A stretch of 64,000 nt of DNA from Posidonia oceanica (taxonomy: Eukaryota > Streptophyta > Magnoliopsida > Alismatales > Posidoniaceae), in assembly GCA_037176725.1 (NCBI GenBank), contig JAZBRS010000049.1:33844001-33908000 (forward strand). The letters run 5' to 3'. Position numbers and translations under genes: made by a program. Below, in pieces: positions 2,791 through 60,384 of this stretch. Every line of letters starts with the position of its first letter. Position 1 is the first letter of the stretch. The notes under the pieces were generated by a model. It did not search any database. It saw nothing but the letters and a program-made list of their open reading frames with translations, and was not told the origin of the DNA.

Positions 2791-3229
2791 CTGACACCGG
2801 CGAGAGCGCAAAACACTGTAGGCGCGGGTCATTCGTCCCGTGGATGCACCGAAAGACATGGCCCAAAGCCACAATGCAGATGTAGATGCGAATGCGGATG
2901 CTGATGCCATGCGTGCAATGTGATGTGTGCTGATGCAGGAGTTAGTGTAGAGGTTATGTTTGATGTTAGTGCAGATGTAATGCATGCTGATGCAGTTATT
3001 TACCATGCGATGCTGTTAGTGCAAGGATGCGATGCTGATGCAGAAGAGATGCAAGTAAAGCTGTATTGCAATGCGTGAGTTCGGGGGTTAGTCCGTCCTC
3101 ACAGGAGAAATGCTTGACAAGGCTGACGGGCTTGGCATCTGAGCAGTTAGGGCTGCTAGCCCAGAAAGCAGAGGGGGAGACAATTGGACGGCTATCGACT
3201 GAGCAGTTGGGGCTGCCAGCCCGCAGGGG
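2791..3229 (-). other. E1 3' UTR, LTR-proximal spacer
   Basis: This non-coding spacer lies between the polypurine tract and the hairpin array. It is rich in the plus-strand words gatgc and tgatgc (2880-3060), which also occur in the matching spacer of E2 (20040-20200). Two copies of a GAGCAGTTNGGGNTGCNAGCCC block start near 3139 and 3199; the block recurs at 5178 and throughout the 428-bp repeats of E2. No coding signal is seen. Confidence 0.7.
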
Positions 3230-12912: not shown

Positions 12913-13960
12913 CTATGCCGCCTGAGAAAGTAATTTCCAAGTTGGTGCAGCTGCAGCCATAGGCTGACTGCCAGGCAACGCCGGAGGGTGTGCTTCTGGT
13001 TCTGGTGCTGTAGCTACGATTGTCGGCAACTTTGGTGACACTGCAAGAAGAAGGGAAGCTGTCAGCCTTGTCCCAGGGTTTGCCAATTCTGCTGCTTCTT
13101 TGGTAAGTGCTAAGCAAACTGACCGGGACGCAGTCGCACTGAGCTGGTCCTTGCTACTGGTTGGGGCTGCCTCAACTATACCAGACTCTTCCTCATCTGA
13201 GTAATAGTCCTCGATGTAGACCCATTCTTCTTCTGGCAGCTGGGAATTTGGGCATAGCGCCTGCTGCACTGAGGCTTCACTACTACCTGATTCCAGGATA
13301 CCTACACTAGTGAAGTTAGTGAGGTCCTGTGGAATAGCCATCCTCTGATCCTTGAGCAGCATGCATCTGTCTTTGCTGGACTGCAGATCGTATCCAAGGC
13401 CTTCAGACTCTCTTCGCTCTGCTGCTCGGACTGGCTCAGTGATTCCCTGGCCATACCGCCCGAGCAGCGCTCCTTTGACATAGCCCCACCTGTGACAGAC
13501 ATTTTCGACCATCTGGAAGGGGTTGCTGTGAACGGCCAAGGAGTTGACGTGTTCAAGATCAGGTACAAAGCTAACCGACTCGCATCGATTAACTCGATAC
13601 AAAGCAGCTGAAAGTTCAGGGTCAAAAGGGATTGTATGCGAAGAGATGGGTGCAACCGCCTCGATCCGCTCCTTCTCGAAGTTTTCCACCATTACAACGA
13701 TAACATCATCGCCGTGGCGAAACTTGATCATGCGGTGGAGGGTCGAGGGGATGACCTGATGCTTGTGAAGCCAAGGGTGCCCAAGTAGGAAATTAAAGTT
13801 AGGCTCCAAGTCAACAATGTAGAACTCCACATCGAAAGTGACCGGGCCAATAATCAAAGGAATAATCAAATCCCTAGAGCGTCATGGTGCATATTATCAA
13901 AAGCTATCATTCCCTTTATCGCTGGAGTGATATCTTCGGCTTTGAATCCGAGCCTGATTG
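12913..13960 (-). pseudogene. E1 protease C-terminal part and G-patch region
   Basis: This is the continuation of the E1 protease that is split by E2. It reads on from the strand segment FDVEFYIVDLEPNFNFLLGHPWLHKH and PSTLHRMIKF, the conserved tail of plant gypsy proteases. It is followed by NPFQMVENVCHRWGYVKGALLGRYGQGI and SEGLGYDL, which resemble a G-patch. The active-site half is on the other side of E2 at 42952-43180. The frame is open to the TAG at 12913. Confidence 0.85.
13956..13960. repeat. Target site duplication of E2, left copy
   Basis: GATTG directly precedes the TGTAGCGATC end of the E2 LTR and is repeated at 42947-42951, just after the other LTR. Five bases is the usual duplication size for Ty3/gypsy integrases. 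Removing E2 and one copy joins E1 protease sequence that matches the uninterrupted protease of E2. Confidence 0.96.
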
Positions 13961-14584
13961 TGTAGCGATCCCGATCGGAACCAGGCTCGCTATTTAGCGG
14001 CGATTGAGATCCGAGGAAGAGGCTCAACTCGAAAAACACTTAAAATCGAGGAGAAAAAGGAAAAGATAAGACAAATCAGAGTCGCCACCACGTCTATTAA
14101 CGGAAGACGAGGAAAACCGGGGTAATGCGTGAATTAACGCGCAAAACCGAGCGATAAATGCAAAGCAAAGCAATGCAAAGGGAAACAAATGCAAACAAAT
14201 GCAAATGAGATGACTCTAGCCTAGGATAAGGGCGGTACGGTCATTGCGGGCCAAAAGACAGGGTAAGGACTCCTGTTACGTGCGGGGAAGGTATTAGGCA
14301 CCCCCGACACGCCCGAAAATCGGTCTTTCTAGGCTTACGCTCGCATACGCAGAAAGATGCAGGATTGAATGCCTATGTGCCTATGAATGCCTAAATGAAT
14401 GCTCAAGGAGTGCTCTAAGTGGGAAGAAACGATGCAAGTAAGTAAACGTGCTCTCTAAGTGCTCAGCTGCGCTGTCTGTGTTCCGAACCAAGCGTAACCT
14501 AGCTCGTGAGAACTCCAGGCAGTAAGCATCACAGCCCTATATGCAAATGCAAGCGAGGAAACAAAACAGCGTGAAAACCATGCA

Positions 14585-14930
14585 ATGGGATCGACATGCA
14601 AGAGAAAACGGCGCGAAACACGCAAAACGAGGCGGGAAGCAAACAACGCACGCAAAACGATGCAAAAGAGCGAAATCGTCACGCAAAACGAGCGGAAAAC
14701 AAGGCAGCGCGCAAAACGAGACAAGAGAGCAAGAAGGTACGCAAAACAGGACGAGAAAACAGAATGGTACGCAAAACGGGGCGAAGGAATAAAATCGGCA
14801 CGCAAAACGAACGAGAAGGCAAGACAGTGCGCAAAACGAGACAAGAAAACAGATGGGCACGCAAAACGGAGCGAAAACGAGGGCGGGCACGCGAAACGGT
14901 GCCAAAACAGCGAAGCAAAAACCTCGAAAA
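14585..14930 (-). repeat. LTR minisatellite built on CGTTTTGCGT (E2 3' LTR)
   Basis: Irregular tandem units of about 30-40 bp centre on ACGCAAAACGA(G) on the plus strand. The same motif forms arrays at the matching place in E2's other LTR (37645-37990), in E3 (51740-51950) and in E4 (59030-59660), and in weaker form in E1 (48000-48170). The long frames over these arrays (repeats of FACPLVFLLR type) reflect the repeat and are not proteins. Confidence 0.8.
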
Positions 14931-17900
14931 AGCCATGCAAATGCGAGGATGCAGAAAGAGATTAAAAGGGGTCGAAAGGGAGGCAAGACAACGTGTGTAT
15001 AAGAACAAACGCTGTTTAGGACCACTCAGAGTAGGTGTGAAGACCTACTGAGGGGAGAAGGGGCAAATGGAGGGATTACCACCTCTTTGCGACTATTTCC
15101 CACTAAACCATTCCACGGTGTGTCTCGCATGCTGCCCAAAGCTCGCGATGCGATCGGATCGTGGAAAAAGGGGAAGAAAGTCACATAAAGTGGCAAATCC
15201 AGGGAGAACGCAACACGAGACACACAGGGAAACGCGAAACGAGGATTTGAATAGACAAGCAGAAGGGGGAAGTCCTATTCTACATGCTTAAAGAGACAGA
15301 AAGCGAAAACAGGGAAAACTGTGCAAATGCCATGCAAATGAATGCAATGCAGGGGTTCAGGAGGACATACCAGGAAATCCGGGAGCCTGATCTGAAATCT
15401 GTCTGGTCTATGCTGAAGAGCGCTTCGCTGCGGTCGCTTGGGCAGCTCACTTGAGAAGATCCAACGGCCGGATTGGAAGATATCGCAGCTCCAAGGCAGA
15501 AGGGCCAGAACAGGGGAGAAGAACAGATCTAGGTGTTCAGGAGGTCCTAGGGATGTGAAAAAGGGTCCTCCCAAGTGAAAGGGAGCTAGGAGTGCTTAGT
15601 GTGTGCAAAGGGGATGCTGAAATGCAAGACTAAATGGATGCAGAATGCATGCAAAAGCAAGAAAAAGTAAAGAAAAGAAGCTGGGAAAAAACTAGGATTT
15701 CAGAAAGTATTTTGAAAAAGAAGAGGGGCTAAAAAATGCAAATTTCCCAGAAAACAGGGTTCCACAGGAGAGGATTTTGAAAACAGGGGAAGACAAGGGT
15801 CTATTTGGCAAAAAACTAGGCTCAGAAAGGTGTTTTGAAAAGAAGGTATGCTTTGAAAGAGATTTTGAAACCAAAAGGGGTCAGAGTGCAATTTTAAAAA
15901 AATCTAGGGTCTAAGATGCAAATTTTCCAGAAAACAAGGTCCTGGGGAGTCTGGGGGTACTAGTGGAAGGTCTGTATGAAATTTGGTAGGCATAGGGGCT
16001 AAAATGCAACCTAGGGGCAAAATGGTCTTTTCACATGATTTTTAAAGCATGCAGGGACCTAAGTGTGGTTTTGAAAACATGCAGGGGTTGAAAATGCAAT
16101 TTAGTATGGAAAATATACTCTGAGAATTAAATGACAGGACCACAGTGCAATTTCTGGAAAATATGGGGTTAAAAATGCAATGCAGTAAGTTAAAATGCAT
16201 GCAGCACAGTTACTGTCCATTTAAAATGGACCTAACTGCAAATATGATAAAGTAGAGGGGCTAATATGCAATGCATCAACCAAAAATAAAAATCAGAACC
16301 TAAGTTTCTACAGTGCATGTACTTAAATGCAAAAACAGAAAAATGCAGGGACTTGGAATGCAATGCAGTATGCAAAAATAAAAAATAATCCTAAGTTCTA
16401 ACAGTGCATGGGACTTAAATGCAAAAATAAAAACATGCAAGGGGCCAGGATGCAATGCAGTATGGTAAAATATAAGTAAATAAATGAACTGACTTGGTAC
16501 AGGACTTAAGTGCAAAAAAAGAAAACAGGAGGACTAAACTACAAAATATTAAAGCAGCACAACACAGTAGATGGATCAACTTGCAAATACTGAAAACTAT
16601 AAACAGATTATGCAATTTAGCATAGTATTTAATTAAAAACCAAGCAGAATAAATGAAATAAGGACTGGAATGCAAAAATGAGGAAACTTAGGACAGACAT
16701 GCAATATTTACCCTAAAACTATATAAACTGAAAAATAAGTAAACAGTGCTGATCGTCGACGGCGACGAGCACTGTAGCACGAAGCTTCCAGAGCTCGTGC
16801 CGTCGACAGGGGAGGCTGAGGATGCGCGGGAAGGCGGAGAGCAACGTCGGCGATCGTCCGGAGCTCCGGGGGTCGACTGGAACTCACTCTGCTGGTCGGA
16901 GTGTCCGGAGGAAAAGCAGCCGGCGCCGGAGAAGGAGGACTGTCCGGCGAGCTGAAGACGGAGCAGGAGGTCCGGAAAGCCTATTCTAAAGGCTGGGGAA
17001 GCAAGAGAAGAAGGAGAGGAAGCTAGGGGAAGCAGTGATTACCTTTTCCCGCGCTTGAGTCGTTCCCCCGACGTCAGTGACTTCAGCTGTCGCCGGTGGA
17101 GGCCGTCTGGTTGCTGCAGACGTTGCCGGCTGCTCGCGGAGGTTGGAATCACTTCAGAACGTCCCTCCGGTGCTTCCTGATCGACCGGACCGAAGTTCTG
17201 CAGCTCAGGTAACGTTTTGGCTTTTCTGGGTTCAGAGGATGCTGCCGGAGGTCGAGGGAGGTGTCCGCTGCTCGTCGGCTTGGATGGAGCGTTCTGGGAG
17301 ATTGCTGGAGGTGCGGGGAGTGGTTCTGGGCGGTTGAATTGTTTTTTGGGAGGCTGTAGGTGGAGATTGGAAGTCGGCTGGTTTTCTGATCAGTGGGTGG
17401 CGTAAGTGTTTGTGGTGGAGTTTGGAAGCTGTGGTGAGCGGTTGGGTTTGAGGCCGGGGGCTTTAGAAAGGTGGAGGCCTGGTGAGTGACTGGGTGAAGT
17501 TTGGGGGGGAGTTGCGGGCTGGAGTGATGGGAATTGTGAGAGAATGGAGCTGGGTTGCAGGTCTGGTGATCAGGGTGTCTCTGGGTGGTTTTAGGTGGTT
17601 TCAGTGGGTGGAATGGCCGGAGAATGAGGCTGGGAAATGGCTGGGTTTTGGGTGAATTTGGGGGAGCAATGGGGAGAAGTGTGGAGGCTTGGAGTGGTAT
17701 TGGGGGATTGGAAAAGAAAGAAGGATGCTTTGCTGATATTTTCAGAGAAGAAAAGAAGAGGACTGGATGGGGGGGATCGGGCTCTGATGAGGGCTTCTCT
17801 CCGGGATGCCCAGAACTCACAAACACTCTCTTTTCCACTCTCTTTTCACTCCGGAATTGGAAGAGGATCAGGGGAGAAGGAAGATCGCACAGAAAGGAAG

Positions 17901-18001
17901 GAAAATTCGGATTTTGGTCTCTGGTTTGCTGGTGGTCTCTCGTTGCTTGCTTGCTCACTGACGGTTTTCTGATGATCCTCTAGTTGAAGGAAAGGACGGG
18001 A

Positions 18002-18011
18002 GGCTTATATC
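18002..18011 (-). promoter_or_regulatory. TATA box in E2 3' LTR
   Basis: On the minus strand the sequence is GATATAAGCC, set between a GC-rich upstream part and a C/T-rich downstream part. It is the only good TATA box in the GC-rich part of the LTR. Transcription would begin about 30 nt downstream, near 17975. In this copy it would drive transcription out of the element into E1; the copy at 41061-41070 would drive E2 itself. Confidence 0.6.
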
Positions 18012-19890
18012 TGGGGAGGGGAGGCTGCTGGCGCGCTGGGAGTTTTTGAAATCCACCGGCGGCCACTGCAGCAGAGAAGACCGGTGTCGTCTGACTCCGG
18101 AAAAACCGCTGAGACGAGGGAGAGGCGGCGAGCTGCTGTAGATTGACACGATGGAGGACTCAAATTCGAATGGAGGAGGGAATCCTGTTGCCACAGCTTC
18201 GCGGGAGAATCGGCCGGAAAAAAAAAAATGCAGAGGAAGATTGAGGAAGAAGAAGGGTGGGGAAGGCCGGACTGTGGGCCGAGAAAAAAAAACGAAGAAA
18301 TAAAAGAAAAAAGGAAACGGGCTGGATTGAGCCCAGTAAAGAAAAGAAAGAATAAAAAAGAAAAGTAAGAGAGAAGGAGAGGGTAGAATGGGGAAATAAG
18401 ATAGGTAAAAATAAACTAAAAATAAATAAAAATATTAGAAGAGTTGTGCTGTAGATTAGGATTTTAATTAAGATTTTTAATGGTTATTTTGAGTTGATTA
18501 ATGTGTTTTGGGCTTGATTAGGGTTTTAGGGCTTTGGTTTTGTTCTTAATTGGTTTTCACTTGATTAAATGTTTGTTAAACCTTTTTTAAATTGTTTTAA
18601 AAATTGTATTTCCCTTGTTGGACACTTAGGATATTAATTAGGATTTTTCAGGATTTATTTCGCATCATTTTAGGGTTGGTTTTAGATTTTAAAGTTGTAG
18701 TCTTCTTAGGTTTTTTCTTTCTTAAGTCTTTTAAGTTATGTCTTGATTTTTTATTTAAGGATTTTTCTTGAAGTTTTTAGTTGGATTTTTTTAGTTTGAT
18801 AGGGTGTTTTTAAGCTTTTCAGATGTGTTTTCTTTTTTTCTTTTTTTTTAATTAAGTTTTTACTTGTTTTTCTTATGTTTGTTAGGTTAAGTCTTTTGCC
18901 TTTCTTAATTACTTGTTCTAGTATTTGATTTTTTAATTCTTCTTTTTGGGTTTGTTTTTTAATTCCTCTGATGGGTTTTTACCTTTGGTGGTTCTTGATT
19001 TTATTTTAGCTTTTTCTTTGATTTTTCAGTGTTTTCTTTTGATTTGTTTTGCATTTTTTAGTTTGCATGCTTGGTTTTCTTTTTAGCTTGCTTAAGTTAA
19101 GTTTAAGTTGTTGATTGCTTGTTTAACATTTTTAATTGTTTTTCTTAGTGCACTGATTTGTTTGTTTTATGTTTTGAGATTTTACAGATTTTTATGGGTT
19201 TTTGTGGATTTTTGCAAAAGGGAGAAAAGGAAAAGAGAAGGAGGGAAGAAATGGAATAAAGGAAAAAGGATAGATTGGAGGAAAACGATTTTTAAAAATT
19301 CAGAAAAAGTGTTAAAAATAAAGTAAAAATCAGGATAAAATAGAGGAGGGATAGAAGCACAGAGGGGGCCCACAGTCAGACCCAAAAAAGGATGAGAAGG
19401 GGGGAAAAAGGGAGATGATAATCAGGAGAGAGAGAGAGGAGAGAGAAAATGATAATCCCGGAGAGAGAAAAGGATAATTTGAGTGAAAGAGGGTCTTAAT
19501 GGTCTTGGAATGGGGTGAAAATTGGTGGGTGGGTAGTCTAAGTTTTGAAGTCTTGGGTCTGAAATTTTGGTTTGATTTTAAGGAGGTTTTGGAGGGGTTT
19601 CAAGGTGTAGGAAAAGGACAGTTTCACCTAAGTTTTCTAGGGTTTTTGGGAATGGGTCAGGCTTGGAAATTCCTAGGTTTTTGGGTAGGTTTGTTGAGTG
19701 GATAGTGGTGGGTTTTCCTATGAATTTTGGTTAGGTTTTGAGGTTGGGAAGGGGGGTAGAGGTTTAGGCCAAAATGGGCTGATTTTGAAGGGTTGAGAGG
19801 AGGGTTAGGGTTAGGGTTTGGTTGGGGTTTGATCCAGCAACCAACAAGAGGGCTCCAAAGGTCTAGGCCTGCCAAGATGGGGTGTCAACA

Positions 19891-19960
19891 GATGCCCCTC
19901 CCTGAGCGAGGGCAAGCGGAGCGCGGCCGCTGCTCAGGGTTGACAAGACACCCCATCTGA
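19891..19960 (-). other. E2 polypurine tract and pre-LTR hairpin
   Basis: On the minus strand AGGGAGGGGCATC ends exactly where the 3' LTR begins with TGTTGACA. Inside it, GCTCAGGG pairs with CCCTGAGC 30 nt away (19903-19910 and 19929-19936). Farther in, GTTGACAAGACACCCCATCT (plus strand, 19937-19956) is an inverted copy of the LTR end AGATGGGGTGTCAAC (19875-19889). The primer would therefore be presented in a stem-loop that uses the first bases of the LTR. Confidence 0.78.
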
Positions 19961-20429
19961 CCGGCGGGAGCAGCGGGTTGCTATGGGCGTGAGCTACTTA
20001 TTCGGCGGATGCACCGAAGATCGTAGCCCGTTGCCGCAATGCAAAATGCCAGTGCAGATGGATGCTGTGCTGTGTGTGATATGCTAAATGCAATGCAAGA
20101 GTTAGTATAAAAGTTAGTGCAGCTATAAGAAAATGCTGATGCTGTGCAAGTGATACTGATGATGCTAAAATGACATGCAGTGCTAGCTAAGAAAGTGCAG
20201 AGATGATGTAAGAAAATGGTAAAAAGGCGCGATGTGGTGCAAATGTCTGGCAGGGAGGGCAGACTTGCACGACAAAGCGAAGGAAAACAGGGTGCAGCTG
20301 GTCCCCGCCCGGGGAGCAAGCTAGCAGGAAAGAAGGGCGCGAGGGGAGAGAGGCCAACTCTCCCATCGCAGAAAGGGGGTGCGTGATCTCGTCTTCCTGG
20401 GACAAGGTCACGCCGAAAAGGAGAAAAAA
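19961..20429 (-). other. E2 3' UTR, LTR-proximal spacer
   Basis: This non-coding spacer between polypurine tract and hairpin arrays is rich in plus-strand gatgc and gtgatgctg words. It contains a short inverted pair around CCCCGCCCGGGGAGCAAG near 20305, similar to the hairpins of E1. No reading frame is supported. Confidence 0.65.
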
Positions 20430-21480
20430 ACGATAAGGTGACGGGCTTATCGTCCGGATAGTTTACGGTCCTATCAACCGGGAGCGACAGTTTACGGTCC
20501 TGTCAACCGGAGCAGTTGTGAGTGATAGTTACTGGATATCAGCCGTATAACATGGTTGTGGGTGATAGTTTAGGAGTATCAGCCTAACGACAGTTTATGG
20601 TCCTGTCAACCGGTGGATAGTTTACAGACCTATCAACTGGAGGATAGTTTACAGACCTATCAACTGGAACCCACCAACCATGAGTGATAGTTACTGGATA
20701 TCAGCCGTATAACGCAATGCCGGATAGTTTACAGTCTATCATCTGGAACGACAGTTTACGGTCCTGTCAACCGGCGGATAGTTTACAGTCCTATCAACTG
20801 GTGGATAGTTTACAGTCCTATCAACTGGAAACAGCATTGCGAGGGACAGTTACTGGATGTCAGCCGTATAACATCATTGCGCGTGGTAGTTTACAGTCCT
20901 ACCAACTGGTGGATAGTTTACAGACCTATCAACTGGAGCGACAGTTTACGGTCCTGTCAACCGGCGGATAGTTTACAGACCTATCAACTGGAAACGCGCA
21001 ATGATGAGGGATAGTTACTGGATATCAGCCGTATAATGCAATTGCGGGTGATAGTTTAGGAGTATCAGCCTAACGACAGTTTACGGTCCTGTCAACCGGT
21101 GAATAGTTTACAGACCTATCAACTGGAGGATAGTTTACAGTCCTATCAACTGGAAACCGCAATTGCAAGGGACAGTTACTGGATGTCAGCCGTATAACGT
21201 AATTGCACGCGGTAGTTTACAGTCCTACCAACTGGAGCGACAGTTTACGGTCCTGTCAACCGGTGGATAGTTTACAGACCTATCAACTGGAAAAGTGCAA
21301 TTACGAGGGACAGTTACTGGATGTCAGCCGTATAACACAACTGCGGGCCAACCATGGATCGGCCAGAAGATAGTTTAGGTTATCAGCCTGAGAGTGATTG
21401 ATTGTTGATAGTTTCGGATATCAGCCTAGCACGAGTTTGATAGATTGATAGTTTCGGATATCAGCCTAGCACGAGTGATT
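20430..21480 (-). repeat. E2 3' UTR array A: branched hairpin repeats
   Basis: About 30 hairpins of 20-25 nt lie here, of the forms GATAG..CTATC, GACAG..CTGTC and GGTAG..CTACC around TTTACRG[AT]C, and GATA..TATC or GACA..TGTC around GTTACTGGA. Between 20512 and 21344 they have a higher order. GCAGTTGTG (20512-20520) pairs with CACAACTGC (21336-21344). Inside are five arms closed by their own stems at 20551/20682, 20713/20841, 20872/21006, 21037/21167 and 21198/21305, separated by six linkers of exactly 30 nt. After 21360 three simpler hairpins follow. It lies in the 3' UTR of the genomic RNA. Confidence 0.9.
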
Positions 21481-21945
21481 GATTGATCGATAAGAGGGGG
21501 CAAGATCATGATGAGAAATTAAGCTAAAGAGGGGATGAGATCATGATGAGAAATTAATCTAAAGAGGGAGATGAGATCATGATGAGAAATTAAGCTAAAG
21601 AGGGGGGGTGAGATCATGATGAGAAATTAGGCTAAAGAGGGGGGTGAGATCGTGATGAGAAATTAAGCTAAAGAGGGGAGATGAGATCATGATGAGAAAT
21701 TAAGCTAAAGAGGGGATGAGATAATGATGAGAAATTAATCTAAAGAGGGGATGAGATCATGATGAGAAATTAATCTAAAGAGGGGATGAGATCATGATGA
21801 GAAATTAAGCTAAAGAGGGGATGAGATCATGATGAGAAATTAATCTAAAGAGGGGATGAGATCATGATGAGAAATTAAGCTAAAGAGGGGATGAGATCAT
21901 GATGAGAAATTAAGCTAAAGAGGGGACGAGATCATGATAAGAATG
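21481..21945 (-). repeat. E2 3' UTR array B: about 35-bp tandem repeat
   Basis: Twelve full copies and one partial copy of a 34-36 bp unit occur, built from GAGATCATGATGAGAAATTA and AGCTAAAGAGGGG (or ATCTAAAGAGGGG). The ATCATGAT core is self-complementary. Copies differ by one to three bases and by the number of Gs, which indicates recent amplification. It has no coding role. Confidence 0.9.
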
Positions 21946-22225
21946 ATAAGATATCGGACTTATCGGTCGGCAAAGAAGGGGTAAGGGAATGATGAGAATG
22001 ATAAGATATCGGACTTATCGGCCGGCAAAGAAGGGGTAAGGGAATGATGAGAATGATAAGATATCGGACTTATCGGCCGGCAAAGAAGGGGTAAGGGAAT
22101 GATGAGAATGATAAGATATCGGACTTATCGGCCGGCAAAGAAGGGGTAAGGGAATGATGAGAATGATAAGATATCGGACTTATCGGCCGGCAAAGAAGGG
22201 GTAAGGGAATGATGAGAAGAAACCA
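21946..22225 (-). repeat. E2 3' UTR array C: 55-bp tandem repeat, five copies
   Basis: The unit is 55 bp long (ATATCGGACT at 21951, 22006, 22061 and so on). Each copy has the hairpin GATAAG-ATATCGGA-CTTATC, then CGGCCGGC and a purine-rich tail. The copies are nearly identical; the first has GGTCGG in place of GGCCGG. A related hairpin (CGATAAG..CTTATCG) lies at 20433-20454. Confidence 0.9.
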
Positions 22226-22394
22226 TCCCTATGACGCCAGGAATGTCATAGGGGAAAGGGGGAGAGAATGATACCGTGGGGCGATCAAAAGATGCCCCTG
22301 GTGTCGGGATGACACCAGGGGTTGGCCAGCGCGTCCATGGTATCGAAAGCAGAGAGTGATGACAAGAGTGTCGTGCTTGTCAGACGAGTAGTTT
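22226..22394 (-). other. E2 3' UTR: conserved hairpin outside the 428-bp array
   Basis: At 22295-22321 the plus strand reads CCCCTGGTGTC, five bases, GACACCAGGGG, an 11-bp stem. It is preceded by AAAAGATG as in the copies at 22818, 23246 and 23674, but with a compensated base pair (GTGTC/GACAC for GTATC/GATAC). On the element strand each copy ends in AGGGGCATC, as the polypurine tract does. Confidence 0.75.
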
Positions 22395-23940
22395 GGGGTA
22401 CCAGCCCGCAAGGGATTCAGCTGAGGGCGATCAGCTGGGGACTCAGCTGGGGTGACCAGCCGAGAAGAGTGTTAGGTTGACGGACCTTTCGCCGAGCAGT
22501 TTGGGGTGCCAGCCCACGAGGGACTCAGCTGAGGATGAACAGCTGAGGAGGATAACAGGTTGACGGACCTTTCGCCGGGCAGTTTGGGGTGCCAGCCCGC
22601 AAGGGATTCAGCTAGGGGCGATCAGCTGGGGACTCAGCTGGGGTGACCAGCCGAGAAGAGTGTTAGGTTGACGGACCTTTCGCCGAGCAGTTTGGGGTGC
22701 CAGCCCGTAGAGGATGGTGGTCCAGCTGGGGGCGACCAACTGGGGATGACCAACCGAGAAGAGGACTCAGCTGGGGATGATCAGCTGGGGATGATACCAC
22801 CGGGCGACCAAAAGATGCCCCGGGTATCAGGATGATACCAGGGGATGGTCGGTACGCCCCTGGCATCAGGATGCAAGGACAGATAGGCGAGTGGATGGAT
22901 GATAGGTTGACGGACCCATCGCCGAGCAGTTTGGGGTGCCAGCCCACGAGGGACTCAGCTAAGGATGAACAGCTGAGGAGGATAACAGGTTGACGGACCT
23001 TTCGCCGGGCAGTTTGGGGTGCCAGCCCGCAAGGGATTCAGCTGAGGGCGATCAGCTGGGGACTTAGCTGGGGTGACCAGCCGAGAAGAGTGTTAGGTTG
23101 ACGGACCTTTCGCCGAGCAGTTTGGGGTGCCAGCCCACGGGGATGATGATCCAGCTGGGGCGACCAACTGGGGACGACCAACCGAGAAGGGGACTCAGCT
23201 GGGGATGATCAGCTGGGGATGATACCACCGGGCGACCAAAAGATGCCCCTGGTATCAGGATGATACCAGGGGATGGTCGGTACGCCCCTGGCATCAGGAT
23301 GCAAGGACAGATAGGCGAGTGGATGGATGATAGGTTGACGGACCCATCGCCGAGCAGTTTGGGGTGCCAGCCCACGAGGGACTCAGCTGAGGATGAACAG
23401 CTGAGGAGGATAACAGGTTGACGGACCTTTCGCCGGGCAGTTTGGGGTGCCAGCCCGCAAGGGATTCAGCTGAGGGCGATCAGCTGGGGACTCAGCTGGG
23501 GTGACCAGCCGAGAAGAGTGTTAGGTTGACGGACCTTTCGCCGAGCAGTTTGGGGTGCCAGCCCACGGGGATGATGATCCAGCTGGGGCGACCAACTGGG
23601 GACGACCAACCGAGAAGGGGACTCAGCTGGGGATGATCAGCTGGGGATGATACCACCGGGCGACCAAAAGATGCCCCTGGTATCAGGATGATACCAGGGG
23701 ATGGTCGGTACGCCCCTGGCATCAGGATGCAAGGACAGATAGGCGAGTGGATGGATGATAGGTTGACGGACCCATCGCCGAGCAGTTTGGGGTGCCAGCC
23801 CACGAGGGACTCAGCTGAGGATGAACAGCTGAGGAGGATAACAGGTTGACGGACCTTTCGCCGGGCAGTTTGGGGTGCCAGCCCGCAAGGGATTCAGCTG
23901 AGGGCGATCAGCTGGGGACTCAGCTGGGGTGACCAACTGG
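22395..23940 (-). repeat. E2 3' UTR array D: 428-bp tandem repeat, about 3.6 copies
   Basis: The period is 428 bp, measured from the palindromes at 22818, 23246 and 23674. Each unit has GAGCAGTTTGGGGTGCCAGCCC blocks, several CAGCTG-centred hairpins, and the CCCCTGGTATC..GATACCAGGGG stem. Open frames of about 100 codons recur with the same period, but their sequence is dictated by the repeat and they have no other sign of coding. Long near-identical units like this are candidates for spread as satellite DNA. Confidence 0.92.
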
Positions 23941-24201
23941 GGATGAGTGTCGCGGGCCTGCAGATGCTCTGGGCTCCGGATTGGGTGCTGAGGACTTCGC
24001 CGCGCTGGGATGTCTGCAAGTCTGATTAGAGGGCCCAAGATAATGATGATGATGATATGCAATGCAGCAAAGAGTCTTGATGTGCAAGCAGAAAGCAGAA
24101 ACAGTTTTTATTGATATGATCTTGATAAGTACAATGCCTGAGGCAGGCCAGAAAAGCACAGCACAAATTGAAAGAAGACCACATGATGGTCGCACAAGGG
24201 C
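23941..24201 (-). other. E2 3' UTR start, after the 3' ORF stop
   Basis: This short unrepeated piece lies between array D and the stop of the DUF7745-like ORF, with a small GATGATGAT microsatellite at 24041-24056. Sequence near 24090-24200 (GCAAGCAGAAAGC and onward) is similar to E1 around 5450-5580, so it belongs to the conserved 3' UTR start. Confidence 0.6.
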
Positions 24202-25404
24202 CTAGTCAACCCGGGCCTTCTTCGGCTGCCTGGAGTCGGGGAACAAGGGGCCGCCTGGCAGGACTTCAGTGATTGGCCAGAGCTGTCGGACTTCCGCTTC
24301 ATAATCAGAAGTGCATCCAGTACCTCTCACGGCTGCAACGTCTGTAGATTGGACCCCATGCTGCATCAGACTAGCAAGCTTCTTGGTTGGGGCAGTGGTG
24401 CTGAGAGGATAAGTCTGTAGAAGCTCGGGCGCTGTACTGTCGATGAAGGCGCCCTGCTGGAAGCCGAACTGGCGCATGACCCTGATTGGATGGTACTCTA
24501 CGCCTGCTGTGAAGCCTGGAAGAATGATCAGCCGCGTGTCACGCGCGCTGAAGAAGATTGTGAATGGCTCTGCTGCAGAGGGAATGATGCGCCAGATCAC
24601 AGCGTCGTCAGTCAATGCTGACAGCCTCTCGTATTCGTCTTTGACGCTCTTGTCTGTTCTGGTACGGGCGCTACTGCAGTAGGCTTCGAAGGCGTGCACT
24701 TGAGGGCGCAGGAAGTCCATTTCTAAGTGCGCGATCAGCCAGACTTGTATAAGTGCTCCGCAACCGTGGAAGTGGCGGCAGCGATGAGAAATGCGGTCCA
24801 GCCCGCGATAAGTCTCTGCCAAGACAACTGGTGCCAGGTCTATATGCTGGGTCACCACAGCTAGTGCAATCTCTGCGACCTCGATGGCCACTGTCAGTCG
24901 GCCATGAGTAAAGATTAGTTCGCCCAGAAAGCGGATGACGAATCCTCGGAGCCACAGCTCATCTCCGAGGTCAGCACGCTTGTTCAAGATTTCATCAAAG
25001 TGTGCAAGGCGAAGCATAGGCTCTTGTCCACTGGTGCAGATTAGCTTTTGTTGGCAGGCTTGAGTGGAGAGTCCAGTCAGTTGGTTCAGGACTCGGAGAT
25101 ATCCGTCGCGCCTCATGAAGACAGGCGGCCCCAAGATCTTTGAAAAGCCGCAGATCCGACGCACCTCTTCCAGTGTAGGTGTCAGCTCAGTCTTGTTGAA
25201 ACGGAAGACATGATGCACCGGCTTCCAGAATCTCGCGGCGGCACACAGAAGGTGGCGGCTGACCTCCACATCAGCAGCCTTTAGCAGCTTAGTTGGTATG
25301 CCCCATAGGTGCAACTTTTCACAGTCTTGTAGAGTGAGCCTGCTGATCCATTCTCGCAGGGTTTCCGAGCAGTGTGCGGGAGTCAACAGAGTAGGAAAAC
25401 CCAT
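24202..25404 (-). CDS. E2 DUF7745-like 3' ORF (accessory protein)
   Basis: This intact ORF has 400 codons from the conserved ATG at 25402-25404; an in-frame ATG at 25537-25539 would add 45 residues that E1 cannot encode. The N-terminal part has ETLREWISRLT, SRHLLCAAARFWKPVHHVF, then FNKTELTPTLEEVRRICGF, in which a folded helical core with the PT.EEV motif fits the DUF7745/plant-mobile-domain pattern as I remember it. A middle part has LGDELWLRGFVIRFLGELIF and EIALAVVTQHIDLAPVVLAETYRGL. A C-terminal part has TDDAVIWRIIPSAAEPF and GVEYHPIRVMRQFG, ending in a basic tail (QPKKARVD) that could be a nuclear signal. There is no catalytic motif I can name. It follows integrase by about 1.5 kb and would need its own mRNA or splicing. 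Its function is unknown. Confidence 0.82.
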   Translation of the reverse strand: MGFPTLLTPAHCSETLREWISRLTLQDCEKLHLWGIPTKLLKAADVEVSRHLLCAAARFWKPVHHVFRFNKTELTPTLEEVRRICGFSKILGPPVFMRRDGYLRVLNQLTGLSTQACQQKLICTSGQEPMLRLAHFDEILNKRADLGDELWLRGFVIRFLGELIFTHGRLTVAIEVAEIALAVVTQHIDLAPVVLAETYRGLDRISHRCRHFHGCGALIQVWLIAHLEMDFLRPQVHAFEAYCSSARTRTDKSVKDEYERLSALTDDAVIWRIIPSAAEPFTIFFSARDTRLIILPGFTAGVEYHPIRVMRQFGFQQGAFIDSTAPELLQTYPLSTTAPTKKLASLMQHGVQSTDVAAVRGTGCTSDYEAEVRQLWPITEVLPGGPLFPDSRQPKKARVD

Positions 25405-26934
25405 TGCACTGGTTGCAGAAGACAGGCTGATTGCTGCAAGGCTTGAGGTACCTGCTATCAATAAACAGTCAGATCTCGCAGGCATATATTCTTTGACGAC
25501 AAGCAGAAGCTGAGACTGAAAGTGTAGTTCCATATGCATTCAGCAGTTGATAACAGAACATAGTAGTTAAGCACAAGTGAATAAAGGGAATTGGCAGCAG
25601 TCCGGTGAAAAGCGGGGGCGAGGGCCGGCAGGGGATGTGGACTGGCGCAGCTTGAGTGTCGCCGATGTGCCTCTGCTGGGGAAGAGTACTGTCTCAGGGC
25701 CTGAGCGTGTTGCAGAGCGGAGGGATTGGCGGAAGGGGAAAGGAAAGAAGGAAGATGCATGAATGCAAGATGCTAGTGATATGCTTATGTGGATGAATAT
25801 TATTGGATGACTAAGTATGTTTGGATGGATGGATATGCTTGGGTGGATGCTTGAATGCCCTCAGCGTACGGAGTGCTTTGGTGCCTGCTGCAGAGGAAGG
25901 GAGTGGTCCTTGACTCACTGGGCCCTACTTAGACTCTTGGCTTATTGGTGGCGCTCCGGAACAGGTCGTTGGCATTATACAGGTGGTGATGTGGTGAGGA
26001 CAGGCTACTGGCTGCATTCTCAGGACCTACACCTATTCTTTCGGCTCTCTCTCTTTTTTTTTTGAAAGGTTTCTCCCTCATAGGTATGCAGTCTTTCTCT
26101 GCCCCTAGCTGGGAGAAGGTATGTGTTTGCTCTTGGGAGGATGTGGTAGACCCCTTTTTCAGGCTCGACATGCTGGGGATCTCCAATAAAGTATGGGGGA
26201 TAACGGTGCCTGTGTGTTTTTTGGGGCTACCTTTGCCTTTTTCTCTTTTTTTTTGTTTGTTTCGCTTGCTTTTCTCCTTTTTTTTTTGTTTTTGTTTTTG
26301 CTCTATCCCTTTTTTTTTTATCTTTTCTTTTTCTCCTTTTTCTCTTTTTTTTTCAGGCTTTTGCTATCCCCATTCTGGTGGCAAAAGAAGGGTGCTTGAA
26401 AATGTAATGGATTCAGATTTTGGGTTTGCTGTGTGATGGGTGGAAGGAGCAGGGTTAGACTGCACACCCCTATCTCTAGGGCCGGCTTCTGTCTTCGTCT
26501 TCTGTCCCTTTGAGGAGCCCAAATCTAGATGTCTATTCTCACTTTTTTTTTTCAAGCTCACATCCTAACATTTTTTCTCCCTCAGAGGTGTATGTCCTTG
26601 TGAGATTGGGCAGTTCGCCCGTCCTAATTGGTGGTGGCTCCCTCACTTGCTAAGTCATCTAAGTAGTGCCGGGTGAGGCAGGGTGACCCTTTCCAGAGCA
26701 GGCGAGCACTTCCGGTTGTCATCACCGGGCTCAAGATGCAATGCTTGAGAGAATGACGATGATGATTTGAATAGGGATGCAAGAGTTGAAAGGATGACGA
26801 TGATGATTTGAAACAGAGAGTCGCAAGAGTTGAAAGAATGACGATTATGATTTGAAAGGAGATGAAGCAAGAAGGCGAGAATGAAAATGCAAGTGTAGGT
26901 GGGAGAAGGGCATCTGCAACGGGGCCGCTTTCGG
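25405..26934 (-). other. E2 spacer between integrase and 3' ORF, with purine-rich tract
   Basis: This non-coding spacer has a plus-strand T/C run at 26220-26360, so the RNA has a purine-rich tract, as in E1 at 7585-7695. A TGACGATGATGATTTGAA unit is repeated three times at 26754-26860. An N-terminal extension of the 3' ORF is open to 25539. A splice acceptor upstream of the ORF is plausible (TCTTCTGCAACCAG on the minus strand near 25415), but it is not proven. Confidence 0.6.
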
Positions 26935-29037
26935 CTACTGATAGTACTTCTTCAGATAGCAGAGGTTGACGGGCTCAGACTGCTCGACCTGGTCCATATC
27001 TTCAAGGGTTACAGCGCCTCCCGAAAAGATCTGCTTGACCACAAAGGGGCCACGCCAATTGGGTCGGAATTTCCCTCGACCGTCCGGCAAGTGAATGGCG
27101 CGCAAGACAAGGTCCCCTGGCTGGAAGCTTCTGGGCTGGACCTTCTTCAAGAATGCTCTGGCCATCCGCTTCTGATAGCAGTGAGCGTTGTGCATGGCTT
27201 GCAATCTGCGCTCATCAATCAAGTTCAGTTGGATGCAGCGGTCTTCGACCCATTCTGCTTCTTCCAACTCAGCTTCCCGCAGGATCCGCAGAGAGGGGAT
27301 CTCCACTTCAACAGGTAACACCGCTTCCATGCCGTACACCAGAGAGTACGGGGTGGCTCCTGTAGAGGTCCGGATTGATGTCCTGTACGCCCAGAGCGCG
27401 TACGGGAGCTTGTCGTGCCAATCCTTGTGGATTTCTGCCATTTTCTTCAGGATCTTGACAATGTTCTTGTTTGCAGACTCCACTGCCTCGTTCATCTGAG
27501 GCCGATAAGGCGAGGATCGATGGTGCTTGATTCTGAGACCTTGCAGGTATTCTTCGATCCTTTTGGCAATGAAGTTTGAGCCGTTATCAGAGATGACAGA
27601 GTACGGGACCCCATATCGGGCAACAATATTGTTTCTGATAAATTTTTCAGTTGCCGCGGCGGTGACTGTCTTGTAAGAGGCTGCTTCCACCCACTTGGTA
27701 AAGTAATCGATCGCTACTAGAATGTAACGATGACCATTTGAAGCAGCAGGGTGGATGGCGCCGATGACATCGATCCCCCAGGTGGAGAAAGGCCATGGCG
27801 AAGACATGTTGTGCAGCTGATGTGGAGGGGCCTTGATGAAGTTACCATGAATCTGACAGTTGTGGCATCTACGCACGAACCGGCAGCAGTCGGCTTCCAT
27901 GGTCTGCCAGAAATAACCTTGCAGCATGATCTTCTTGGCTAGGAGAACGCCGTTCATGTGCGGGCCACAGGTCCCCGCATGCACTTGAAGCATCAGCGTG
28001 TCAGCCTCTGATTTGTTCAGGCAGCGCAGTAGCATCTGATTGTATGACCTTCTGTACAGCTGCCCGGCCCCTAACACATACTTTGACGCCAGACGCGCCA
28101 AAGTTCTCTTGTCTGCTGCCGTGGTATCAGGAGGAAAGTTACCAGACTCCAGGAAAGATTTTATGTCTTGATACCAGGGCTGTCCCTCTGCGGGATCTGC
28201 TTCTTCTATGCTCATGCAGTATGCAGGCTGTTCAATGCGAGTGACTGATACATCCACACTGCTGTCTTCAGAAATGGTGAGCCAGGATGCCAGAGTTGCT
28301 AGTGCGTCTGCATACGCGTTCTTTGCTCTGTTCAGGTATGTGAAGCGGATGCTCTTGAATTCTTTCATCAACCTCAGCAGGTGTTCGTGATACGGCACAA
28401 GCTTGGGATCTTTTGTCTTCCATTCGCCGTTCACTTGAGAAATTACCAGCATGGCATCGCCGTGCACATGCAGCTTCTGCGCCTCATGCTCGAGGGCGAC
28501 TTTCAACCCCAGGATGCATGCTTCGTACTCTGCTTCGTTGTTTGTGCAGGTGAAAGTCAGCTTCCTCGCGAAAGGAGTCATCTGTCCTTGGGGCGTGGTC
28601 AGCACTGCGCCTACGCCCCGGCCCTTCTTGCTGACTGCACCATCAAAGTAGAGCTGCCATTCCCTTGCTTCTTCAGGATTTTTCTGCTCAGAGTCCTCCA
28701 TTGCAAAGAGAATGTCTTCATCAGGGAACTGCGTCTGGAGGGGTTGGTATTCAGGCAGAGGGAGGTCAGCAAGATGGTCTGCCATTGCTTGACCCTTCAT
28801 GGATTTCTGTGTGACGAAGGTGATGTCGTACTGAGACAATAACACCTGCCACTTAGCACATCTGCCCACCATGGCCGGCTTCTGGAAGAGGAATTTGATA
28901 GGATCATGCCGGCATAAGAGCTGCACAGGGTATGCCATCATGTAGTGTCTCAGCTTCTGTGCAGCCCAGACAAGTGACAAGCAAGTCTTCTCTAGTGTTG
29001 TGTACCTGGCTTCGCATTCATTAAATTTCTTGCTCAG
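26935..29037 (-). CDS. pol: E2 RNase H, archaeal-type RNase H and integrase
   Basis: This is the C-terminal part of the polyprotein, in the same frame as the upstream segments after a TAA at 29038-29040. It begins inside gypsy RNase H (LSLVWAAQKLRHYM). The second, archaeal-type RNase H at about 28660-28260 has its acids in LYFDGAVSKKG, NNEAEYEA, HGDAMLVI and NAYADALA. Integrase follows: zinc-binding HAGTCGPHMNG and CHNCQIHG; the DDE core with GIDVIGAIH, SDNGSNF and AVESANK; and a C-terminal NWRGPFVV module ending in YLKKYYQ, with no chromodomain. All catalytic residues are present. It would degrade the RNA template and insert the cDNA in the nucleus. The two-RNase-H order assigns the element to the Tat lineage. 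Confidence 0.96.
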   Translation of the reverse strand: MSKKFNECEARYTTLEKTCLSLVWAAQKLRHYMMAYPVQLLCRHDPIKFLFQKPAMVGRCAKWQVLLSQYDITFVTQKSMKGQAMADHLADLPLPEYQPLQTQFPDEDILFAMEDSEQKNPEEAREWQLYFDGAVSKKGRGVGAVLTTPQGQMTPFARKLTFTCTNNEAEYEACILGLKVALEHEAQKLHVHGDAMLVISQVNGEWKTKDPKLVPYHEHLLRLMKEFKSIRFTYLNRAKNAYADALATLASWLTISEDSSVDVSVTRIEQPAYCMSIEEADPAEGQPWYQDIKSFLESGNFPPDTTAADKRTLARLASKYVLGAGQLYRRSYNQMLLRCLNKSEADTLMLQVHAGTCGPHMNGVLLAKKIMLQGYFWQTMEADCCRFVRRCHNCQIHGNFIKAPPHQLHNMSSPWPFSTWGIDVIGAIHPAASNGHRYILVAIDYFTKWVEAASYKTVTAAATEKFIRNNIVARYGVPYSVISDNGSNFIAKRIEEYLQGLRIKHHRSSPYRPQMNEAVESANKNIVKILKKMAEIHKDWHDKLPYALWAYRTSIRTSTGATPYSLVYGMEAVLPVEVEIPSLRILREAELEEAEWVEDRCIQLNLIDERRLQAMHNAHCYQKRMARAFLKKVQPRSFQPGDLVLRAIHLPDGRGKFRPNWRGPFVVKQIFSGGAVTLEDMDQVEQSEPVNLCYLKKYYQ

Positions 29038-31086: not shown

Positions 31087-31089
31087 CTA

Positions 31090-34000
31090 GTTCACGGGCG
31101 CGTCTGATGGTGGCAACTCTGATGTAGATGGCCCAAATAGACAAGCTAGCGGTGCTACTGATGGATAAGCTTCCAGGGTCACTGCTGGAGAATAAGCAGG
31201 GGTGCTCCTTGGGGGGCTCAAGGGCCCGGAGAGTGTAGTGCTCAGTTGGCCTTTTGTATCGGGCCGTAACTGAGAGAGCGCAGCCTCTGACGCCATAGGG
31301 TCTTGCCACGAGAGCTGCTGCGGGTCGTCAGGAGAATGCGGAGCGGACTGGGCCAACTGCATTCCTGAAGATGATGCTGAGGGAGCGGGCTGGGCCACGC
31401 TGCCGACTGAGTTGATGGACTGCCCCTCCAGAGATGGGGGCAGTGGCACTGATGTTGCAGTGACCGCTGGTAGCATGCTTGGTTCTGCCAAGAGGAGTGT
31501 CTCTGACTCCTGCACTGCTGCTGACTGTTCTTGAGAAGCTGGTGTGGCTGGAAAAGGATGAGAACTTGCTTTTGCCACAGGGCCTGCTGAACTGCCTGCT
31601 GTTTCTGCCAGAGGGAGAGCTGAATAAACTGACTGTGGGGCCTCTGCTCTGACCACTGTTTCTGCTGAACTGATTGGGACTGCCTCTGTTGCATCAGACT
31701 GCTCCTCATCCGAGTAGTAGTCCTCAACACACACCCAATCCTCAGTCGGCGCTGCGGCTTGGTAGTCAGTTGATCCCAGAATTCCTGCACTGGTAAAGTT
31801 AGTGAGGTCTCTGGGAATGGCTGGTGCACGATCCTTGAGCTGGAAGCAGTGATCTTCGTCGAGCTTTGGTTCGTAGCCGAGACCTTCAGACTTCCTTCGC
31901 TCCACTGCTATGATCGGCTCCGCGATCCCTTGGCCGTGACGCCCGAGTGGCGTACCCTTTGTGTAACCCCACCTGTGACATACATTCTCGACCATTCGAA
32001 AGGGGTTACTGTGAACGGCCAAAGAGTTGACACGTTCAAGATCAGGAACGAAGTTAACTGGCTCGCACCGGTTAACGCGATAGAGGGCTTCAGAAGTCTC
32101 AGGGTCAAATGGGATGGATTGCGAAGACACGGGAGAAACTGCTTCAATCCTCTCCTTCTCAAAGTTTTCCGCCATGACGACAATGACATCATCGCCACGA
32201 CGGTACTTTATCATTCGATGGAGGGTCGAAGGAAGGACCTGATGCTTGTGAAGCCAAGGGCGCTCAAGCAGAAGATTGAAGTTAGGCTTCAAGTCGACGA
32301 CATAGAATTCTACGTCGAAGACGACCGGGCCGATAGCCAGAGGGATAATCAGAATCCCTAGAGCGTCATGGTGAGTGTTGTCAAAAGCAGTCATTCCCTT
32401 CACGGCTGGCGTGATATCCTCGGCTTTGAATCCGAGCTTGGTTGCTGTACGCAAGGGGCAGACGTTAAGGCCTGACCCGTTATCAACCAGTGTCAGGGGA
32501 ATGCGAAAGTTTTTGAACTGCACCGTGACGAATAAGGGCTGGTTGTGATTAATCCCTGCCGGAGGTAGCTCATCACTCGTAAAAGAGATGACCTGGGGCT
32601 CCGCGATTAACCCAACCATGCTCTCCAAGGCAGAAGGCTCAATGGACTGGGACACACGAGCAGCCTGGAACACACGAAGAAAAGCCTCGCGATGTTCGGC
32701 AGAAGTGTGGATCAAATCCCAGATGGAGATGTCGGCTTTAACCTTCTTAAGCTGGGAGGTTAGGTCTGCTCTAGGTTGGTCTCTCCTAACAGCTGGAGGG
32801 GTGATTCTAGCAGGTTCTACAGGGGTAGTGGCAGGAAGCTGGGTTACTACAGGCCGGCTAGGGGCTTGGCTAACTACAGGCTGATCTGGGGCTGGATTTG
32901 CTGAGGGTTGGCCTGAGGATGGGGGTATAACAGGTCTGGGATGAGTTGGCCTAGTTGCCGGTGCTGGGGGCCTGTAAATCCTCCCCGATCGCGTTACTTC
33001 CGCGCACATTTCTGTGGCGTAGCTGTAAGGGACGCGATGGGTGTCCATGGTCAAGTTAATGACGACTGGAGCATGTGCTGCGAGCACAGGAGGGGTTACA
33101 GGGGGACCTACAGGATACTGAGGTCTGTCTAAAGGATATGGTTGTTGGGGTGGGAAGGCTGGGGCAGGTTGAGGTCTGCCTAGAAGGTGTGGTTGAGGTC
33201 GCCCTAGAAGGTGAATGGGAGAACTAGGCTGGGCTCTGGCTAAAAGGTGTACGGGAGATTGAGCCTGAGGGAGCACGGTGGGAGACGCGCGAGGGCGCTC
33301 CGGCCTGGCACGCGGTCGGATCAAATGGATTCCCGACTCGGAGCCGGCAACTGCCGCCAAATAGAGACTGACTGGGAAAGGCTCAGAGAGGTCAGAGATA
33401 AGATCAGAAGGGTCCACTACAGAGGTAGCAGGCCCAGAGGGAAAGACAGAGTGGACGCCTGAGGTTCCCGCCCTTCCCGGATAAGAGTGCTCCGGTAAAG
33501 GTTGGCGGACGATGCCAGAATGCGGGGGAACAGCTGGAGATGCAGATGCATGGGTGCGTGCTTGAGTGGAAGCCTCGTGCGTGTCGATCACAATCGTTCC
33601 CGATTCGATCAGGTCCTGAATTGCGTTCCGCAGGGAGAAGCAATTATCCGTCGAATGCCCGACGCTTCGATGGAAATTGCAGAAGAGGTCCGGCCTAAAC
33701 CAATGCGGCAGAGGGCTTGGCGGCGGACGAACCTCCGGGAACTTCAGGAGCGATGCCACCTTTGGCAAGATGACCGTGAGTGGTTCCACCAGTGGGGTGA
33801 AATTCCGCCTCTCAGCGGGTGGTCTTCTTTGCCTTGGGCCTTGCTGAACCGGTGCGGCAGGATAGACCGGTCTAGCGGTGGTTGTGATGTGCGGTGTGTG
33901 CAGGATCCTAGGTGCAGGAGCGTACACCACCTGAGCTGGGGCAGGCCGTGACGGCAAGCGAACAGGCACAGCAGGAGAATCGACGAATGCAACAGCGGGT

Positions 34001-34224
34001 TTCGGCGAGTCCTTCCTCTTCGGGCGGTTGTTGTTGCTGCCGCTGTTGTTGTTGTTGGAGGTGCTGCTGTTGGCACTGTTGCTGCTTATCACTGCCTGCT
34101 TAGCGAACGCAGAGAGAGCTGGGAAGTTGCCACTCCGCAAAGAACTCTCCACGCGCGCTCCAGCTCTGATGAGTGCCGCAAAAGTAGTGACTGGTTGAAT
34201 GCTAAGCAAAGCTCCGAGAGACGG
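31090..34224 (-). CDS. gag-pro: E2 gag C-terminal part, zinc knuckle, protease and G-patch
   Basis: This is in frame with gag after a TAG at 34225-34227. In order it has: LSIQPVTTFAALIRAG (end of the gag core); an Asn/Ser-rich stretch with a basic RPKRKDSPKP; a zinc knuckle FCNFHRSVGHSTDNC (C-x2-H-x4-H-x4-C, the variant usual in Tat/Athila gags); a Pro-rich region; a pepsin-like protease with active site VDNGSGLNV near 32463-32492 and the tail LLLERPWLHKH/PSTLHR; then a G-patch-like WGYTKGTPLGRHGQGI and a Ser/Gln-rich end. The protease would process the polyprotein. DNG-S replaces the more common D-[ST]-G; E1 has the same, so it is a family trait. Confidence 0.92.
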
Positions 34225-42946: not shown

Positions 42947-42951
42947 GATTG
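42947..42951. repeat. Target site duplication of E2, right copy
   Basis: GATTG follows the LTR end GGTGTCAACA and matches 13956-13960. E1 protease sequence resumes immediately. Confidence 0.96.
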
Positions 42952-60365: not shown

Positions 60366-60366
60366 G

Positions 60367-60384
60367 TGGCGACTCTGCTGGGGA
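60367..60384 (+). other. E4 primer binding site (tRNA-Arg)
   Basis: TGGCGACTCTGCTGGGGA lies one base after the LTR end and is identical to the site in E2. Confidence 0.87.

Follow-up and report, generated by a model that had tools for sequence, protein, structure and literature searches.

The RNA of a branched array in the 3' UTR of an LTR retrotransposon from Posidonia oceanica is predicted to fold as about 25 H-type pseudoknots mounted on a five-armed frame, and we consider it fairly likely that selection has kept this fold. The array lies within the window (the whole stretch of 64,000 nucleotides that was analysed), and is self-complementary at three nested levels. Loops that stay constant while their stems change, stems that interleave, a geometry that suits one strand only, and a module shared by two elements together point to selection on the RNA.

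Host element and its neighbours

The window holds nested Ty3 LTR retrotransposons: the element that carries the array, E2, sits inside a relative, E1. The LTRs of E2 (13961-19893 and 37020-42949) are 99.6% identical, and the TSD GATTG stands on either side of the element (flanks TGATTG/TGTAGC and CAACA/GATTG); the LTRs of E1 are more diverged (96.8-96.9% identity). RT, RH, a second RNase H, integrase and a plant mobile domain (PMD) are all encoded on the minus strand, the sense strand of E2. The ORF at 26935-28980 contains the domains RT_RNaseH (2-51), RVT_3 (112-230) and rve (397-494), and we read RVT_3, situated between RH and INT, as an aRH. According to the available part of PMC6317226, a second RNase H (aRH) in this place is a mark of Ogre and Retand, and an extra ORF with a plant mobile domain occurs in 57% of Ogre elements; since E2 has both, its domain set fits the Ogre lineage (Ty3, Tat clade) by the criteria of that source. 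The features that frame the array are:

13961-42946, minus strand: host element E2, a Ty3 LTR retrotransposon fitting the Ogre lineage (LTR pair, TSD, domains)
24202-25539, minus strand: plant mobile domain ORF, directly upstream of the 3' UTR (PF10536, E 4.9e-21)
19891-24201, minus strand: 3' UTR of E2, from the PMD stop to the PPT/LTR junction, with many tandem repeats

A polypurine tract (AGGGAGGGG) precedes the 3' LTR of E2, the PPT/LTR junction being AGGGAGGGGCATC/TGTTGACACC. The 5' LTR is followed by TGGCGACTCTGCTGGGG, which we take to resemble an Ogre PBS (putative).

Several further observations concern the relatives of E2. In E1, whose 3' UTR lies at about 2725-5600, a PMD ORF is likewise found in sense orientation downstream of pol (5677-6645, corresponding to 24202-25539 in E2). 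Homologues of the PMD numbered 11 proteins among 7999 scored candidates: ten are encoded on short ENA contigs (52-85% identity over 20-87% of the query), and the eleventh is a Nicotiana tomentosiformis protein (24% identity). An ORF between gag and RT carries a G-patch domain (31087-34209 in E2, with its counterpart in E1 at 12913-13869). On the plus strand a third related element, E3, extends over 53000-64000; it has sequence resembling LTRs and gag, and its 3' UTR falls beyond the window. The PPT/LTR junction sequence of E1 and E2, AGGGGCATCT (2724-2733 and 19890-19899), recurs inside the 3' UTRs at 5081-5090, 22290-22299, 23241-23250 and 23669-23678, and these internal repeats are possibly internal PPT copies. 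In E2 the hairpin CCCCTGGTATC..GATACCAGGGG precedes AGGGGCATCT; near 22300 its stem reads GTGTC/GACAC, a matched variant.

The branched frame and its small units

An earlier note on this DNA, made from the letters alone, had described an outer stem enclosing six linkers of exactly 30 nt that alternate with five arms. All of this holds at the positions it gave, and the parts are as follows:

20512-21344, minus strand: branched array, 833 nt, with outer stem, six linkers, five arms and 25 predicted pseudoknot units
20512-20520, minus strand: outer stem, side 1, 9 bp, exact complement of 21336-21344 (pairing probability on the sense strand 0.99)
21336-21344, minus strand: outer stem, side 2, partner of 20512-20520
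20551-20682, minus strand: arm 1, 132 nt, closing stem (probability 0.93) and four units (20588, 20613, 20640, 20667)
20713-20841, minus strand: arm 2, 129 nt, closing stem (0.99) and four units (20747, 20774, 20801, 20828), one of them with a 1-nt deletion
20872-21006, minus strand: arm 3, 135 nt, closing stem (0.98) and four units (20909, 20936, 20964, 20991)
21037-21167, minus strand: arm 4, 131 nt, closing stem (0.99) and four units (21074, 21099, 21126, 21153)
21198-21305, minus strand: arm 5, 108 nt, closing stem (1.00) and three units (21235, 21263, 21290)
20521-20550, 20683-20712, 20842-20871, 21007-21036, 21168-21197 and 21306-21335, minus strand: linkers 1 to 6, 30 nt each
20456-20510, minus strand: two further predicted class-A pseudoknot units, outside the outer stem
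21369-21470, minus strand: three degraded relatives of the linker/TTAGG unit

The outer stem GCAGTTGTG/CACAACTGC matches exactly, and the arms 1 to 5 are closed by CATGGTTG with TGGGT (one bulged base), CGCAATGC, CATCATTGCGCGT, TGCAATTGCGG and CGTAATTGCAC, respectively. These six stems resemble diverged copies of a single stem in which 9 of 11 columns vary. At least ten changes are two-sided, and all 65 pairs are Watson-Crick (64 of 64 once a pair that overlaps a neighbouring unit is dropped); among the 64 counted pairs there is neither a mismatch nor a G-U pair, and the bulge in arm 1 is the one irregularity. That the arm stems differ from arm to arm and pair within each arm was borne out by permuting their partners: with each stem on its own partner the six score 63, the second-best of the 720 permutations scores 54, and the best score with no stem on its own partner is 27. 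The count of three or four small repeats per arm also proved right (4, 4, 4, 4 and 3), as did the switch of the linkers from GATA/TATC to GACA/TGTC: there are three of each, linker 1 being of the GATA/TATC type, and in the stems TACGG/CC(a)GTA plus GATA/TATC or GACA/TGTC all 54 counted pairs of the six linkers are Watson-Crick. The bulged pairing of the first linker stem has a rival in the simpler hairpin GCUG/CAGU, and the matched switch is confined to the second stem.

The matched arms bear directly on the plainest explanation, an ordinary hypervariable 3' UTR minisatellite with palindromic monomers, in which a chance palindrome was recently duplicated. Tat elements commonly carry tandem arrays between pol and the 3' LTR according to the available parts of PMC7004042 and PMC11963269, and E2 is young by the identity of its LTRs. 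Duplication, however, copies stems unchanged and cannot make arms that are mutually different yet internally matched; the arm scores (63 against at most 27) thus disfavour a minisatellite of this kind, as do the matched changes in a module common to E1 and E2 (see below), and we regard it as very improbable.

The earlier note had proposed to compare the fold energy with that of dinucleotide-shuffled controls, and the sense strand lies below all 100 of them (-255.0 against -224.6 +/- 8.1; lowest shuffle -241.5). Without constraints each of the six closing stems reaches a pairing probability of 0.93-1.00 on the minus strand, and likewise in the context 20300-21600. The plus strand is also stable (-271.3, z -4.65 against shuffles), and on it arms 2 and 4 lose their closing stems (probabilities of 0.24 and 0.22). 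The small interleaved stems described next behave differently in nested folding: stem 1 has a probability of 0.04 and stem 2 of 0.23, other nested pairings being preferred inside the arms, and the nested parts that can be named, taken alone, are less stable than the unconstrained fold of -255.0 (-190.8 for the arms plus stem 2, -138.5 for the arms plus stem 1). The folding program excludes pseudoknots, so that the two inner stems cannot be tested together by this means.

The class-A unit reads, on the minus strand, C-CAGT-T-GATAG-G-ACTG-TAAA-CTATC, in which two stems are interleaved, CAGT/ACTG and GATAG/CTATC. Judged from its letters, the small unit is better described as an H-type pseudoknot than as a hairpin. 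Its connectors on the minus strand, 1 nt and 4 nt (TAAA), are constant in 18 of 18 class-A units and have the lengths of the classical H-type arrangement under the groove-crossing rule. Read on the plus strand, the same unit would leave 1 nt to cross a 5-bp stem; the geometry therefore suits the sense strand only. Both stems are possible in every class-A unit: stem 1 with 4 bp (11 units) or 3 bp (7 units), and stem 2 with 5 bp in all 18, once including a G-U pair. Unit variants combine CGGT/ACCG with GACAG/CTGTC or GATAG/CTATC, CAGT/ACTG with GGTAG/CTACC, and TTAGG/CCTAA with TGATA/TATCA. The 25 predicted units inside the outer stem are 16 of class A, one of class A with a deletion, two of the TTAGG type and the six linkers; 19 thus stand in arms, and the linkers have a weaker, bulged first stem. 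Of the central loop with eleven branches that the earlier note envisaged, the branched frame stands, and the small units as simple hairpins give way to predicted pseudoknots. That note had overlooked the second interleaved stem, the units at 20456-20510, and the degraded relatives at 21369-21470 (one with a 3-bp first stem, two with a mismatched one).

A scan for bulge-free knot geometry at a looser threshold gave 25 matches on the minus strand of 20430-21480: 22 units (18 inside the outer stem and 4 outside) and three other overlaps; the linkers and the deletion unit, which such a scan does not list, were identified by eye. At a threshold of -10 the array has 24 knot-like matches on the minus strand against a shuffle mean of 5.6 (30 shuffles, largest 11), whereas the LTR (17 against 14.3), pol (20 against 24) and gag (29 against 27; 6 shuffles each) stay near their shuffles, and the 35-bp array shows no excess on that strand (0 against 0.3). 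The plus-strand counts (array 17, pol 40, gag 41) all exceed the minus-strand shuffle means, and given the excess in pol (40 against 24) and gag (41 against 27), the knot scan by itself proves little.

An alternative use of the same letters would be a switch, in which each unit forms two mutually exclusive hairpins at different times, for example on protein binding. Taken singly, units can indeed favour either hairpin in nested folding: with ViennaRNA the optimum has stem 1 in the CAGU unit (-4.1) and stem 2 in the CGGU unit (-6.4). The connector lengths, on the other hand, let both stems coexist on the sense strand, and a switch has no need for 1-nt and 4-nt A-rich connectors kept in all class-A units, so that we hold this reading to be quite unlikely.

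Covariation was scored on 18 class-A units of the one E2 copy (16 inside the array and 2 beside it), which form eight distinct rows. All six loop columns are invariant in all 18. Matched changes replace A-U by G-C in stem 1 (7 of 18 units), and in stem 2 U-A by C-G (6 of 18) and A-U by G-C (2 of 18). The covariation score is 0.337 against 0.183 +/- 0.032, a value reached by none of 500 shuffles, and slid partners give at most 0.133; two of the five measures are unremarkable, namely the number of pairs changed on both sides (3, equalled or exceeded in 81 of 500 shuffles) and of further pair types (4, equalled or exceeded in all 500). The stems also pair best within their own unit: 65 of 72 pairs for stem 1, which no random partnering among 20000 equalled, and 89 of 90 for stem 2, equalled by one in 20000. 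The network of the eight types has three branches with one fully compensated pair each, an outcome reached in 3 of 400000 random placements. Six of the 12 inferred substitutions make up these three compensated pairs, three are one-sided changes in stems (U-U in 6 of 18 units, C-A in 1, G-U in 1), and three fall in a spacer column. The departures amount to six U-U and one C-A among 77 stem-1 pairs, with one G-U among 95 stem-2 pairs, that is, one G-U in 172. As an argument for strand the G-U count in the array is weak, one G-U standing against one C-A. The units are young tandem copies, and the compensated events may therefore be as few as three.

Predicted knots and hairpins elsewhere in the two elements

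Other repeats of the two 3' UTRs contain further types of predicted knots:

21934-22218, minus strand: 55-bp repeats, four copies of the predicted pseudoknot CGG-CC-GATAAG-T-CCG-ATAT-CTTATC
22388-23884, minus strand: 428-bp repeats with 12 copies of the PK1-PK2 module
3143-3162, 3203-3222 and 5181-5200, minus strand: PK1 module in the 3' UTR of E1, three copies

In a fifth 55-bp repeat the first stem is changed. The PK1-PK2 module consists of PK1, GGG-CT-GGCA-C-CCC-AAAC-TGCT, and a second predicted knot, PK2; its 12 copies in E2 and 3 in E1 all lie on the minus strand, and 100 shuffles gave none. Matched changes in PK1 across E1 and E2 include GGCA/TGCT, GGTA/TACT, and A-U or G-C in place of a G-U end, and in the first stem of PK2 the third pair is G-C, U-A or C-G. 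Over nine rows the covariation score of the module is 0.157 against 0.067 +/- 0.020 (1 of 500 shuffles as high); these rows are 9 of the 15 copies, the six omitted being E2 copies whose PK1 is identical to an included row. The pairing has its gaps: among the nine rows, the three-pair first stem of PK2 is broken at two pairs in E1 3222 and at one in E1 3162, and the innermost pair of the first PK1 stem forms in two. In stem 2 of PK1, all 60 cells of the 15 copies are standard pairs on the minus strand, 10 of them G-U. These ten would be A-C on the plus strand, and it is on PK1 that the G-U argument for strand rests.

The main repeats of E1 are long hairpins, not knots. They form a different family at 3233-5021 of its 3' UTR (GCTTGTCCTCG/CGAGGACAAGC and relatives, 31 counted), and some differ by matched changes (TTATCC/GGATAA and TTGTCC/GGACAA). 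Their 310 pairs comprise 276 Watson-Crick, 14 G-U, 9 A-C and 11 other. A reading of the CTTG/CAAG repeats of E1 as knots was dropped, since their changes track the long hairpin, and the scan excess found there (38 against 21.5) was not used as evidence.

The LTRs of E1 hold hairpins of another kind: twelve of 27 bp, TTGGACGC-11 nt-GCGTCCAA, spread across both (392-2474 and 48285-50454). Their loops have several sequences and are always 11 nt, though 5-20 nt were allowed, and 100 shuffles gave none. The hairpins TTGGACGC/GCGTCCAA at 1481 and 49374 differ almost completely in the loop and agree in the stem and in 30 nt on either side. The 5' LTR of E1 also has some 58 bp (49569-49626) without counterpart in the 3' LTR, and one of the hairpins (49584-49610) lies within them.

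Selection, copying and known systems

The earlier note had left the matter at either a selected fold or a hairpin-copying mechanism; selection on the fold is in our judgement the best reading, and copying stays a real rival, albeit on balance an unlikely one. Template switching during reverse transcription or DNA replication copies one side of a hairpin from the other and repairs mismatches in one step; on this view the matching in arms and units would be a side effect of mutation, with no selected function of the RNA. Template switching has been proposed as a way in which perfect RNA stems arise and persist (PMC8794818, available part), and the near-absence of G-U intermediates in the frame and units (0 of 64; 1 of 172) fits copying at the DNA level at least as well. 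It is further favoured by the E1 LTR hairpin at 1481 and 49374, in which a cluster of nine mismatches is confined to the 11-nt loop; with the loop swapped and the flanks identical, it shows that a hairpin of this lineage has had its loop replaced. Template switching, however, places no demand on loops, and yet the six loop columns of the class-A units are invariant, where inverted or altered loops would be its mark. It works on single hairpins, and alone it accounts neither for two interleaved stems with pseudoknot spacing nor for the G-U pairs of PK1 that suit the sense strand. The published cases differ likewise. The template-switch-maintained hairpins of PMC8794818 share perfect stems and compensatory changes with our array, but are those of microRNA and rRNA genes, and in the main text of that source, as available, the word pseudoknot occurs 0 times; its available passages have no nested array in a retrotransposon either. 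In quasipalindrome correction the arms of an inverted repeat are kept alike by template switching, the spacers sometimes being inverted (PMC8604942, available part), but such correction would predict neither interleaved stems nor conserved loops. The two processes may also act jointly, copying supplying the matched changes and selection retaining the knots.

If selection on RNA shape is accepted as the preferred reading, the array would serve the genomic RNA as a compact cis-acting structure shielding the 3' end, and it may support translation or packaging. It would have grown by tandem duplication, its copies drifting through changes that preserve pairs. In the tobamovirus upstream pseudoknot domain there are only a few knots, followed downstream by a tRNA-like structure. 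Our array has some 25 predicted knots on a five-armed frame, and belongs to an LTR retrotransposon instead of an RNA virus. Rfam returned no family at the gathering cut-off anywhere in the window, and no tRNA-like structure of that kind with it. What the two have in common are pseudoknots in the 3' UTR of a plant RNA (PMC4683447, available part), here consecutive predicted ones at 20456-21344 between the PMD stop and the 3' LTR. The tobamovirus domain stimulates translation and is replaceable by poly(A), according to the available part of PMC5382211. Both its location, 3' of the last ORF and before the end of the RNA, and its type of structure lead us to liken the array to this domain, and by that analogy our leading guess is that it helps to stabilize, translate or package the genomic RNA.

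Searches for the knots themselves gave little. In viral contigs the unit pattern had 0 exact matches, the PK1 patterns 0 and 1, and PK2 0; the single PK1 match (contig L001) is taken as due to chance, no repeat array being present in the 400 of its 4493 bases that were read. In genome contigs the unit pattern had one match, in Lachnospiraceae (L002), about the chance expectation by our own estimate. These misses say little, since the contig collections hold no plant genomes. To our knowledge, about 25 knots in one array would be an unusually long run for a natural RNA. Among the matches listed in a search of titles and abstract openings of open-licence literature, none concerned pseudoknot arrays in the 3' UTRs of LTR retrotransposons.

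Like 3' UTRs of the Tat lineage (Ogre, Retand), that of E2 carries tandem arrays specific to the family in the interval from pol to the 3' LTR. Such repeats are termed hypervariable and seed plant satellites (PMC7004042), and a survey of 2025 calls the origin and function of those of Retand unknown (PMC11963269). The available text of PMC7004042, PMC11963269 and PMC3305785, searched by term, has no mention of hairpins or RNA secondary structure, and that of the latter two none of pseudoknots. A selected RNA fold, if true, would give the Tat 3' UTR repeats a role, and in the arms selection and template-switch copying can be compared cleanly, in a natural setting, as sources of compensatory changes. 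As a tentative and at present rather doubtful generalization, the 'hypervariable' 3' UTR of Ogre may be a pseudoknot polymer, whose sequence is rewritten between families while the sense-strand knots are kept, multiplied and mounted on branched frames. If so, the tandem repeats, and the plant satellites descended from them, would exist through selection for serial knots, not for sequence.
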